A stretch of 15,164 bases of DNA from Bacillota bacterium (lineage in GTDB: Bacteria > Bacillota > Bacilli > Alicyclobacillales > SLC66), in contig JAKACR010000039.1 in assembly GCA_021821225.1 (NCBI GenBank), positions 1 through 15,164 on the forward strand, given 5' to 3'. A program made the position numbers and the translations under genes. Below, piece after piece: positions 1,846 through 6,747 of this stretch; positions within the stretch are counted from its first letter, which is position 1; each line of letters begins with the position of its first letter. The notes beneath the pieces are model-generated. The model saw only the letters and a list, made by a program, of their open reading frames with translations, was not told the DNA's origin and made no database searches.

Positions 1846-3102
1846 TCAAGATTCGACCGCCTGCAATGATGCCTTGACCACGGCCCCCCTGGACGCGCGC
1901 AGGGACCATTCGACGGTTTTCCACATGCGGTCCGCATGATAGTCGAGCATACGCGCAAGCGCCGCGGACGGCAGAACGAGCACGCCGACATCGTCCGCCA
2001 GCATGACCACCTCAGGCTCCATTCGGCCCAGGGCGAGCAGGACGGCGCTTTGCACTCTCTCCCTGGTTTTTCCGGCCAGAGCCCGCTCCACCGCCGCGCG
2101 CGGCACCGCGCCCTGTTCCGTCCACCCGACCTGAAAGACGACGGACGAACCCTCGTGATCGGCGAGAAAATATCCTTGGATCGACCGCTCGCCGCAGCGA
2201 TCGTCCATTTCCTTCACGCCGAATACGTCCATCAGAATCCGGACCGTCCCGGACATGTCGTCCGCCGCCAATTCGGCCAGCCTGTCAACGGTCACATCCC
2301 GGTCCGGAGAAAGTTCGTCCAAAGACACCGACGCCCGGTTTACGGTTGTTGCGGAAAGGTCGGCGCGCAGGCGTTCCTTGCGGCGGTCGAGCAGCGCCTG
2401 CCGGCGCGCCTGCTCAATCTCGTGGTCGATCCACGCCGTCCGATGACCAGCGCACCGCTCGTCGGCAAGGCCGTACTGTCCACAGAGGACTTCCGCCAGC
2501 GCTTCGCGATACAAGAGCGAAAGTCCGCCCCACTCCGCCGTCCGCGCTCTCTCCCACTGCGCAAACGACCGCCACACGCGCTTGAGATCCCCTCCGGCGT
2601 CGCGCGCCACTTCCTCGTCGATCCGCTCTTTTGCCATATCCAGCACCTCGCGGTTCAAAAGGAGCCAGAGGATCCGGACATCAGGGAAATGCATCCCCTC
2701 TTCGGACAGAATCGCGCCCAGATCATGGTGCATCGCAGGCGCCGAATGCGGCGTGAAAGGAATCCCGCGCTCGGCGGATGAACGCGCGATCTGTACCCGC
2801 CCGCATTCATCAATCCGGAACGGGCATCGCATATACACGGGGTAGCGCCTTGCGAAAAGACGCAAATACGACCGCGCGTCCCGCACGGCGACAGTGCACA
2901 ACGAAAGTTCGCGGCGCAACTTCGGAAGTTCCAGCCACAACGGGAGCAGGCGAACGTAAAGGCGCAGCCTCTCCTCGCCCGCCAGTCCCAGCCATGCCAG
3001 CGCCAACACCGCCGATGCGACGGCCGCTCGGGCCACTCCGCCTTCCAGCATGTTGTACGCCGCCCCCGCCAGCGCCACCGCAAACAATATCCACACGGAC
3101 AA
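1846..3102 (-). CDS. Unrecognised two-TM protein, possible degenerate Mrr-like C-terminal domain
   Basis: The 418-residue product starts with two hydrophobic segments (about 2-19 and 25-43) and then a long charged, helical cytoplasmic region. I do not recognise the middle. The C-terminal part (about 305-395) contains VVFQVGW, RAAVERALAGKTRERVQ, EVVMLADDVGVLVLP and SAALARML. This order recalls the restriction-endonuclease-like (Mrr type) fold, in which a Q-x-K strand is followed by a helix and a strand ending before a hydrophobic helix. The catalytic Lys would be replaced here (QVG), so any such domain is probably inactive; this is inference. Translation starts at TTG, which directly follows an in-frame TGA, so no longer start exists; GTG two codons later is the alternative. 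It diverges from the GH18 gene at 3244. Confidence 0.75.
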   Translation of the reverse strand: MSVWILFAVALAGAAYNMLEGGVARAAVASAVLALAWLGLAGEERLRLYVRLLPLWLELPKLRRELSLCTVAVRDARSYLRLFARRYPVYMRCPFRIDECGRVQIARSSAERGIPFTPHSAPAMHHDLGAILSEEGMHFPDVRILWLLLNREVLDMAKERIDEEVARDAGGDLKRVWRSFAQWERARTAEWGGLSLLYREALAEVLCGQYGLADERCAGHRTAWIDHEIEQARRQALLDRRKERLRADLSATTVNRASVSLDELSPDRDVTVDRLAELAADDMSGTVRILMDVFGVKEMDDRCGERSIQGYFLADHEGSSVVFQVGWTEQGAVPRAAVERALAGKTRERVQSAVLLALGRMEPEVVMLADDVGVLVLPSAALARMLDYHADRMWKTVEWSLRASRGAVVKASLQAVES

Positions 3103-4660: not shown

Positions 4661-4863
4661 GTTGTTCAAAAAGGGGCAGAACTCCCCGGCGCATGGCCGC
4701 GTCATCGCCAGAAATGCTCCCTCACGTACCCAAAACGTACGCTCGGTCCGCATTTCTGGCTGCTTCCTAGGGGACATGGGATAATGTCCACTGCACACCC
4801 ACTCGGTTTATCCCATGTCCCATTGCACTGCGTGGGTCAACCCTGCCCCCTTTTTGAACAGGC
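4661..4863. mobile_element. MITE-like element with terminal inverted repeats
   Basis: TGTTCAAAAAGGGG at 4663-4676 is repeated inverted at 4847-4860 (14 bp perfect, with CAG just inside both ends). Inside lies a second inverted pair, GCCAGAAATGC (4707-4717) and GCATTTCTGGC (4750-4760), so the whole element can fold on itself. It encodes no transposase. A partial copy lies at 1425-1501. It sits between the GH18 gene and the peroxiredoxin, ending five bases from the peroxiredoxin stop codon. No secure target-site duplication is visible; CACT occurs near both ends but may be chance. The gap 4605-4660 holds nothing I can identify. Confidence 0.75.
4771..4821. repeat. Perfect 14-bp inverted repeat nested in the MITE
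   Basis: GGGACATGGGATAA (4771-4784) and TTATCCCATGTCCC (4808-4821) are perfect complements around a 23-base loop. The segment is missing from the other repeat copy at 1425-1501, which reads straight from the CTGCTT segment to the GCACTGC segment. It may be a nested insertion or a hairpin lost from the other copy. Confidence 0.8.
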
Positions 4864-4867
4864 ACTT

Positions 4868-5353
4868 TTAGACATTCAAACCGCGCAAAACGTCGAAAAT
4901 TTCCTCATTGTCCGGTTGCTTGTCAATCGGATGAACGTCGATGAAGCGGACGACGCCCTCCTTGTCAATCACGAACAGCGACCGTTCATTGAACCCTTCG
5001 GGCCGCAGCACGCCGTATTTTTCGGCCACAGCGCCATGCGGATAAAAATCGCTGCAAAGCGGATAGGTGATGCCGCCGATCGACTTCTGCCACGCCTCAT
5101 GACTCGGAACGCTGTCGACGCTGATACCCAGGACCTGGGTATTATACTCTTCGAAACGGGACAATTCGTCCTCGTACGAAGGCATCTGGGCGCTTCAGAC
5201 AGGCGTCCAGTCCAGCGGATAAAACGCGATGAACACATTCTTGCCGCGAAACTCGGACAGTGTGACCGTTCTGTCACCGTGCGCCTTCAGCGTAAAATCA
5301 GGCGCTTTGTCGCCCACTTTCAACGTCTTGGTCTGCGTTGCACCTTTTGGCAT
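4868..5353 (-). CDS. Peroxiredoxin (AhpC/TSA), candidate selenoprotein with in-frame TGA at codon 53
   Basis: Read through one TGA (5197..5195), this is a complete 161-residue thioredoxin-fold peroxiredoxin that reduces peroxides in the cytosol. Upstream are [12 protein letters not shown] (13-24), [16 protein letters not shown] (37-52), then TGA at residue 53, then [11 protein letters not shown]. In this family the residue after PLDWTPV is the peroxidatic Cys, so TGA sits exactly where Cys or selenocysteine is expected. Downstream, [33 protein letters not shown] and [18 protein letters not shown] complete the fold. C100 (PLCSDF) is the only Cys and might resolve the oxidised form. The ATG at 5353 follows a strong AAAGGGGG ribosome site; an internal ATG at 5185 has no such site. 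A SECIS-like hairpin follows the TGA at 5181-5149. A simple nonsense mutation is the alternative, but everything else is intact. Confidence 0.88.
5149..5181 (-). promoter_or_regulatory. SECIS-like hairpin for selenocysteine insertion
   Basis: Starting 13 bases after the TGA, the mRNA can fold into a stepped stem. A 5-bp lower stem (5181-5177 with 5153-5149) is followed by a small U/UU internal loop, a 3-bp stem, a single bulged A, a 4-bp upper stem (GGAC with GUCC), and a 5-base loop GAAUU (5167-5163). Bacterial SECIS elements are known to lie just after the UGA and to carry a G at the first or second loop position. Here the loop starts with G, 27 bases after the UGA. Pairing was done by eye. 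Confidence 0.6.
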
Positions 5354-5402
5354 GGAAATCCCCCTTTACCACTGATTTATGTAGCATCCGGCGCGCGAGT
5401 CC

Positions 5403-5411
5403 ATTATAACA
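5403..5411 (-). promoter_or_regulatory. Extended -10 promoter for the peroxiredoxin
   Basis: TGT-TATAAT (TATAAT at 5408..5403) overlaps the stop codon of the gene ending at 5404 and lies 50 bases before the peroxiredoxin start. No clear -35 is present. It suggests that the peroxiredoxin is transcribed separately from the upstream gene. Confidence 0.55.
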
Positions 5412-6747
5412 GATCACGCGGTTGGTTGCGCCATCGCCGCTTCCACTCGTCGGCCTGCGCGGGCAAAGGCCCGCTGTCGTACCGCTCGCGCTGAACGGCA
5501 AACAGCGCGATCTCCCGCGCCTTGACCGGACTTAGCACATCGGCTCCCACAAACGCGAGCAACGCTGCGCCCAACCCGCTGGCATCCCCTGCGCCAACCG
5601 TCACCGCGCATCGGCTCACGGCCGCCTGAAAGGCAAACAGCGCGGGTTCATCAAACACGACATCGTCCGCAAAAAGATGAAAAGCGAGAGAAGCGCCGTT
5701 AGCGATATCCGACAGCGCACCGTCCACGCTCAGAACCATTGAGCGCAGCGCCGCCGCAAACAAGTCCACCGGGCGCAAACCCGACCCCACATCGACCAGA
5801 GCGACGCGATCCGACCTGCCGGATAAAGCGCGAAACACCAGAGAATCGCCTAGGAAAAGCGCTTCGTCCAAGCCGTCTCGCAAACCGTTCCCGGGAAACA
5901 GTGCTTCAAGCCACAGCCATGCCTGTTGCGGCGCGGAAAAACGTGCAAAAAAGGCGTACGCAAAGCCTCCCGTCCTGGGCAGCCCGATCGGCCGCACCGC
6001 GGTGGCGCCAGAAGACAGCATCTGCGCCCGCCGCTCGTCCAGTCGCACGATCAGATATCCTTCCTCGCGATATCCGATGAAACCGGTGCCTGTCTCGTCA
6101 ATGCCTGTTGCGTACAGGGCGGCGACCGGAGTGCAGGCGATGGAAGTGACAGGCGCGCGCGCTCCGCCCAGATAGACGGCGGCGACGCGCCCAAGGACGC
6201 CCGGATGGTTCGCCAGGTGCGGCCACACTGCTCCGGGAAGCGGGACATCCTGCGCCGTCTGCACAAGATCCGCCAGGTCGTGGCTGATGTCAAGGAAGCA
6301 CAACTGCCCCTGCGTAAGATTCCACAACAGCCAGCTCTCCACTCCGCCCACGCGCAGGCCGCTTGCGCTTCGTTCCGACGCATTTGCCAGTTGAGGAACA
6401 CAGGTCAGCAAAAACGACAATCGTCCGCCGACATTCCTGGCCGGCCAGTCTTCCGGCGTCGTCCACAGGCCAACGGGTCTTCCCGACACCAATTCCCAAC
6501 ACACCAGCACGTGAGGAGACGCCGCGATCCCGACTGCCGCAAGTTCAAACGGTGTGATGCCGGCCCTGCGCACGGCCACATCCGACAGCGTGATGGTGGA
6601 ACTGAGCAATTCGTCGGCCGACAGCGGCCCATCCCACACACGGAGCGCGCGGGCCGCCTGACTGCCGTCCGATCTATATATGTACACCGCAAGCTGCCGG
6701 GAATCCTGCACAATGGAGAGGGCATAGCCCTCACGATCTTCCAGCAC
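5404..6747 (-). CDS. Degenerate FGGY-family (glycerol-kinase-like) protein, probable pseudokinase
   Basis: The 447-residue protein follows the FGGY sugar-kinase order but has lost its chemistry. Matching segments are LAAVGIAASPHVLVCWE (69-85; compare aIGITNQRET of glycerol kinase), GGVESWLLWNLTQGQ (134-148; DSWLIWKLTGG), VTSIACTPVAALY (200-212; ISGIAGDQQAALF), GTGFIGY (220-226; GTGCFML) and a C-terminal GLGAALLAF (391-399; ALGAAYLAG). The catalytic-base Asp of the GDQQAAL motif is Thr206. The N-terminal DQGTTS phosphate loop is absent, and the VDGG nucleotide-binding motif reads FADD (359-362). So it is probably a non-catalytic sugar- or partner-binding relative; this is inferred from alignment by eye. 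It starts at GTG behind GAGAGGG at a long spacing. The stop codon overlaps the peroxiredoxin promoter. Confidence 0.8.
   Translation of the reverse strand: MLEDREGYALSIVQDSRQLAVYIYRSDGSQAARALRVWDGPLSADELLSSTITLSDVAVRRAGITPFELAAVGIAASPHVLVCWELVSGRPVGLWTTPEDWPARNVGGRLSFLLTCVPQLANASERSASGLRVGGVESWLLWNLTQGQLCFLDISHDLADLVQTAQDVPLPGAVWPHLANHPGVLGRVAAVYLGGARAPVTSIACTPVAALYATGIDETGTGFIGYREEGYLIVRLDERRAQMLSSGATAVRPIGLPRTGGFAYAFFARFSAPQQAWLWLEALFPGNGLRDGLDEALFLGDSLVFRALSGRSDRVALVDVGSGLRPVDLFAAALRSMVLSVDGALSDIANGASLAFHLFADDVVFDEPALFAFQAAVSRCAVTVGAGDASGLGAALLAFVGADVLSPVKAREIALFAVQRERYDSGPLPAQADEWKRRWRNQPRDLL

Follow-up and report, generated by a model that had tools for sequence, protein, structure and literature searches.

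The window, i.e., the whole stretch of 15,164 nucleotides analysed here, carries on its minus strand a peroxiredoxin gene (4868..5353) encoding 161 residues, which reads from an ATG at 5353 down to a TAA stop at 4868. The frame is intact apart from a single in-frame TGA, codon 53 (5195..5197, minus strand), which directly follows PLDWTPV and occupies the position of the peroxidatic residue, where alignment with related loci indicates that it is probably read as selenocysteine (Sec). A ribosome-binding site, AAAGGGGG, lies 6 bases 5' of the ATG (5360..5367, minus strand), and further upstream there is a possible -10 box, TATAAT (5403..5408, minus strand; TGTTATAAT, extended -10 like), for which no clear -35 box was seen when the sequence upstream of the gene was read by eye. 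The Pfam AhpC-TSA domain matches residues 13-137 with 136 bits, spanning the TGA, when Cys is put at position 53. This confirms the initial annotation, which described a frame running from a ribosome site to its natural stop with the sole TGA at codon 53 after PLDWTPV, and places it on the minus strand. A Met is found four codons past the TGA, and a C-terminal piece of 105 residues would begin there. Among the 14 other frames taken as genes in the window, 12 have a Pfam match and 10 are terminated by TGA as an ordinary stop, so TGA is not reassigned throughout the window; the absence of in-frame TGA in these 14 frames is a consequence of how they were called.

The gene order GH18 gene, peroxiredoxin, hisB, hisD and short-chain dehydrogenase is common to the window and one related locus (L002). 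Just downstream of the peroxiredoxin gene there is an element of about 200 bases (4661-4866), whose ends pair and enclose nested hairpins, with a single-strand DNA fold z of -6.9; it resembles a MITE or REP-type repeat, and 37 of its bases recur at 1425-1461 (95%). Pieces of 24 and 18 bases from this element had no exact occurrence in 106 loci. Elsewhere in the window, MoaD-like (ThiS) and MoaE domains are fused in one protein (704-1426) beside moaC (58-582), and two long minus-strand frames of 418 and 447 residues (1846-3102 and 5404-6747) have no Pfam match.

A search for related loci in genome contigs with the peroxiredoxin gene retrieved 77 loci. The alignment of the 161-residue product with Cys and Sec homologues, proposed in the initial annotation, brings TGA and Cys codons into one column, 54 against 23: at codon 53 the window and 54 of the 77 loci have TGA (55 Sec rows), the other 23 have TGT or TGC (Cys rows), and no third residue occurs. 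Identity to the window protein is 51-91% for the TGA loci, which come from Bacillota, Acidobacteriota, Chloroflexota and unassigned metagenome-assembled genomes (MAGs), and 35-55% for the Cys loci, which come from Zixibacteria, delta-proteobacterial groups, Arthrobacter, Chloroflexi and one Methanoregula MAG. In Tumebacillus avium there are two copies of the gene (L008 and L010), both with TGA. In Desulforamulus aquiferis (L067) the match stops at residue 75 and the frame then breaks, and selA is likewise in pieces; both are probably errors of the draft. In a second peroxiredoxin on a Zixibacteria chromosome (L054, 10360-10761) the codon that aligns with the catalytic one is likewise TGA (YPKNNTPG*NSQ); it sits near a Cys-form relative of the window gene. 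On plasmid records, 463 entries match the window peroxiredoxin, every one below 60% identity, and no relative of it was found on viral contigs.

The structure predicted with Cys at position 53 (pLDDT 93.2) has as its best PDB fold match the AhpE of Mycobacterium tuberculosis (TM 0.90, 39% identity), which is also the best PDB match by sequence, and the predicted fold is AhpE-like, of the 1-Cys type. The PxxxTxxU motif comprises Pro46 (5216..5218, minus strand), present in all 55 Sec and all 23 Cys rows, and Thr50 (5204..5206, minus strand), present in 55/55 Sec rows and replaced by Ser in 11 of the 23 Cys rows (Thr in 12). The active-site arginine, Arg124 (4982..4984, minus strand), is found in 23/23 Cys and 54/55 Sec rows, the exception being a gap in L067, which through its early frame end has no residue there. 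The fold, the PxxxT/SxxC(U) motif and the conserved Arg that characterise peroxiredoxins of the AhpC/TSA type are all present, with Cys standing in for Sec. Cys100 was considered as a conserved resolving Cys and rejected, as it occurs in 24/55 Sec rows and in 0/23 Cys rows. As in AhpE-like proteins, a resolving Cys appears not to be needed, and an outside reductant is likely because 23 of the 55 Sec rows (the broken frame of L067 among them) have no other Cys at all. In AhpE-like 1-Cys peroxiredoxins, reduction is by mycoredoxin or a low-molecular thiol. Three Chloroflexota Sec forms (L046, L050, L051) are fused to a glutaredoxin domain, suggesting that reduction proceeds through a glutaredoxin or a low-molecular thiol; in Bacilli the reductant would presumably be bacillithiol together with bacilliredoxin, or thioredoxin.

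Peroxiredoxins with one catalytic residue can also hand oxidation on to partner proteins, and the absence of a conserved resolving Cys fits such a role. A protein that does contain Sec, and mainly senses H2O2 or oxidises partner proteins instead of scavenging peroxide in bulk, is nevertheless an unlikely alternative in our view, given that the peroxidase motif PxxxTxxU and the Arg are conserved and that the glutaredoxin fusions suggest a reducing cycle.

A much less probable explanation is that the TGA is a real stop, either in a pseudogene or by a sequencing error for TGC, so that the working protein is absent or consists of the 105 residues from the internal Met. The position of that Met, so soon after the TGA, would suit this explanation, as would the fact that the 105-residue piece is what gene callers report. 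The latter had been foreseen in the initial annotation and is borne out by the protein database, where a search gave 6721 matches: among the 120 matches listed, 27 are fragments of 103-105 amino acids starting at the Met of MPSYED, one of them the window's own. However, this piece would have neither a catalytic residue nor the strands with which the fold begins, and, as judged by eye, most rows have a ribosome-like site in front of the upstream start. The conservation of the flanks on both sides of the TGA, also claimed at the outset, held across the TGA loci at their 51-91% overall identity, which again speaks against a stop. In addition, all 14 further gene copies outside the 77-locus comparison have TGA at codon 53. 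Recurrence in 54 of the 77 aligned loci rules out that the TGA stands at this codon by chance, and because it is the same TGA in 54 loci a sequencing error is not credible. What we find, an in-frame UGA aligned with the Cys of homologues and set in conserved flanks, is the pattern by which selenoprotein genes are recognised. In the remaining listed matches the site residue is Cys in 71/120 and Trp in 22/120; the Trp entries (P0013, P0024 and P0028 among them) are probably selenoproteins whose TGA was translated with genetic code 4.

Within the coding sequence, 27 bases past the TGA, folding identifies a SECIS-like hairpin (5144..5185, minus strand) with a 5-base apical loop, GAATT (5163-5167, minus strand). 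The bSECIS rules, as set out in the accessible text of PMC13188914, call for a loop of 3-9 bases, a G in its first two bases, a distance of 16-37 bases from the UGA and a minimum free energy of -7.5 kcal/mol or lower, and the window hairpin agrees with all four, with G first in the loop, 27 bases and -17.4 kcal/mol. By themselves the four rules discriminate poorly because Cys rows also pass: considering the single best fold, 19/55 Sec rows and 4/23 Cys rows agree with all of them, and considering folds within 3 kcal/mol, 41/55 and 10/23.

A clearer separation was obtained by codon shuffling over the 51 bases past codon 53, in which the protein was kept fixed and synonymous codons were redrawn 300 times per row according to local usage, the latter being counted from all six-frame open stretches of at least 250 codons, false ones included. 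The mean z of the stability is -2.33 for the Sec rows vs -0.25 for the Cys rows, and the native sequence ranks at 5% or less in 43/55 Sec rows vs 1/23 Cys rows; for the window z is -2.37, with 5 of the 300 shuffles equally stable. Five control stretches from the same genes gave mean z values from -0.5 to +0.18 (Sec rows) and from -0.8 to -0.18 (Cys rows), the less clean ones lying 37 codons upstream, where 9/55 Sec rows rank at 5% or less, and 22 codons downstream, where 8/23 Cys rows do so. Judged against these shuffles, the RNA past the TGA is more structured than the encoded protein requires.

Covariation gave mixed results. Counting all pairs of the hairpin, 36 cells are changed on both sides vs 19.1 in shuffles (3/500 reach 36), and the covariation score of the hairpin at 5144-5185 is 0.160 vs 0.123, a value reached in 0/500 shuffles. 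At the pair formed by columns 21 and 45, both third codon positions, the 52 distinct rows show A-U in 15, G-C in 15 and no pairing in 22. The number of hairpin pairs with a change on both sides is 6 vs 6.1 in shuffles, and the cells paired in this hairpin amount to 68.6% vs 65.2%. An Rfam search of the window and of the gene gave no SECIS match, and RNAalifold returned no consensus pairs for the 55 Sec rows, nor for the Cys rows.

In order to relate the gene to the Sec machinery, curated cut-offs were applied to 48 genomes. Of these, 42 were taken from the 52 genomes that contain the 54 TGA loci (a pair of loci in two cases), and the other 6 represent 6 Cys loci out of 23. In the 42 Sec-form genomes, selA is over the cut-off in 41, selB in 41, selD in 42 and tRNA-Sec in 41, with all four in 39. 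The three genomes that miss one component (tRNA-Sec in G010, selB in G015 and selA in G033) are all MAGs, and the weak tRNA-Sec scores in G005 (49.7 bits) and G042 (47.1 bits) may belong to other tRNAs. The selD gene itself carries an in-frame TGA in 42/42 Sec-form genomes, as expected for a Sec-containing SelD. Among the six Cys-form genomes, three from Arthrobacter have none of the four components over the cut-off; the other three, G043, G044 and Arthrobacter ipis (G046), possess the complete set.

The association was also examined in 398 genomes sampled from the class to which Ferroacidibacillus organovorans belongs, taking the gene as present at E <= 1e-40. It occurs in 28/398 genomes as 29 copies, and codon 53, checked copy by copy (16 among the 77 loci and 13 among the further copies), is TGA in 29/29. 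All 28 gene-bearing genomes have selA, vs 85/398 overall (Fisher p = 2.9e-21, with the kinship of the genomes ignored), and in the 313 class genomes lacking selA no copy, Sec or Cys, was found at this threshold. Within the order of F. organovorans the gene is present in 8/59 genomes, each with one TGA, all 8 being among the 29/59 with selA; 8 other genomes have only distant matches, 41-44% identical and without TGA. The alignment of the TGA with the Cys of homologues, together with the company of Sec machinery that the gene keeps in relatives, supports the initial proposal of a Sec enzyme. The accompanying remark that such proteins are uncommon in this Bacilli lineage fared less well, since the Sec machinery is not rare there, with selA in 85/398 genomes of the class and 29/59 of the order. 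Decoding of the TGA as some residue other than Sec, be it Trp (as in code 4), Cys or Gly, is the least probable explanation and can be practically dismissed, since apart from the Trp entries in the database, which would suit it, TGA ends 10 of the 14 other window genes, the loci without TGA have Cys at the DNA level in 23/23 cases, selA accompanies the gene in 28/28 genomes and the RNA after the TGA is structured.

In our view the gene almost certainly encodes an AhpE-like Sec peroxiredoxin with one catalytic residue, whose UGA is decoded via SelB and the hairpin and which is reduced by another molecule. As far as can be judged from sequence, the product is very probably a genuine antioxidant enzyme that uses selenium; Sec insertion in the organism of the window, peroxidase activity and the identity of the reductant are what we infer on this basis. 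With the ribosome at codon 53, SelB carrying Sec-tRNA(Sec) would bind the hairpin at 5144-5185 just downstream, so that the UGA would be decoded as Sec. Pro46, Thr50 and Arg124 would hold the selenol, which on reducing a peroxide would turn into a selenenic acid. The reduction of this acid would then fall to a second molecule, probably a low-molecular thiol working together with a glutaredoxin-like protein; for Bacilli we presume bacillithiol and bacilliredoxin, or thioredoxin, as the partner.

The distribution of Sec and Cys was traced on a tree of 89 rows, built by a quick method with the catalytic site masked, from which L067 was omitted and to which 12 Cys proteins from the database were added by choice. 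The window falls in a clade of seven rows, all TGA, together with Ferroacidibacillus organovorans and five MAGs. The Bacillota set (35 rows, SH-aLRT 97) is wholly Sec, and no Cys version was found in this AhpE-like clade of Bacillota. On the whole tree the Sec/Cys label changes at least 7 times, 3 of these changes being forced by starred branches. Many Bacilli are aerobic. The broader proposition, that the Bacillota AhpE-like clade uses Sec without exception and that Sec is indispensable for peroxide defence in these mostly oxygen-living spore formers, seems to us evenly balanced. If true, a Sec-only peroxide defence in spore formers would go against the rule, stated in the accessible text of a 2026 review, that aerobic bacteria rarely retain selenoproteins (PMC13188914), and the all-Sec clade in Bacilli offers a direct test case for that rule as worded there. 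As long as these proteins are recorded as fragments of 103-105 residues or as Trp forms, the selenium-dependent part of oxidative defence in Bacilli goes unseen.

Sec-peroxiredoxins are already known as a kind. The "Peroxiredoxin (Prx)" selenoprotein family of the published surveys (PMC1794560, PMC5029168, PMC9312934 and PMC13188914, in their accessible portions) shares PxxxTxxU, PF00578 and a peroxidatic Sec with the window protein, and by its TxxU motif, as given in those portions, the predicted product belongs to this family. The same portions name neither a Bacilli peroxiredoxin nor an AhpE-like subgroup; the open text of PMC5029168 counts 91 proteins from 78 organisms in the TxxU family, and that of PMC1794560 gives Bacillales 3 selenoproteins, belonging to 3 families, without naming them alongside the count. 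In the literature within reach, no AhpE-like Sec form from Bacilli was found, and subscription papers and supplementary tables beyond it may count orthologues. Nothing was found on Ferroacidibacillus and selenocysteine, nor, by title, on Tumebacillus and selenoproteins, and the deep-Sep paper (PMC12013277) makes no mention of peroxiredoxin, Prx, Bacill or Firmicutes. A "PrxU" reported as upregulated on ore in Sulfobacillus thermotolerans is a 178-residue peroxiredoxin for which the accessible part of PMC7409299 gives no evidence of Sec.

The window gene stands outside PrxU (NCBIfam NF040737), with which it shares the use of Sec as the peroxidatic residue. The PrxU model is longer, at 233 positions, and membership was rejected at 82.2 bits vs a curated cut-off of 270; altogether 15 NCBIfam models matched the window protein, 0/15 at their own cut-off. 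From reference lists, we take PrxU to be the Sec-peroxiredoxin of Eubacterium acidaminophilum. The three Sec peroxiredoxin-glutaredoxin fusions of Chloroflexota and a Cys form (P0010) have the same peroxiredoxin domain as the window protein, but carry their own glutaredoxin domain, which the window protein does not have. The reductants of the window protein may differ from those of AhpE, and to our knowledge mycothiol is absent from Bacilli. With AhpE of M. tuberculosis (PDB 1xvw, 4x0x and 5id2) the window protein shares its length, the active-site Pro, Thr and Arg and the absence of a required resolving Cys, whereas at the site itself it reads TPVUSAQ against TGICQGE, the predicted Sec taking the position of the peroxidatic Cys of AhpE.
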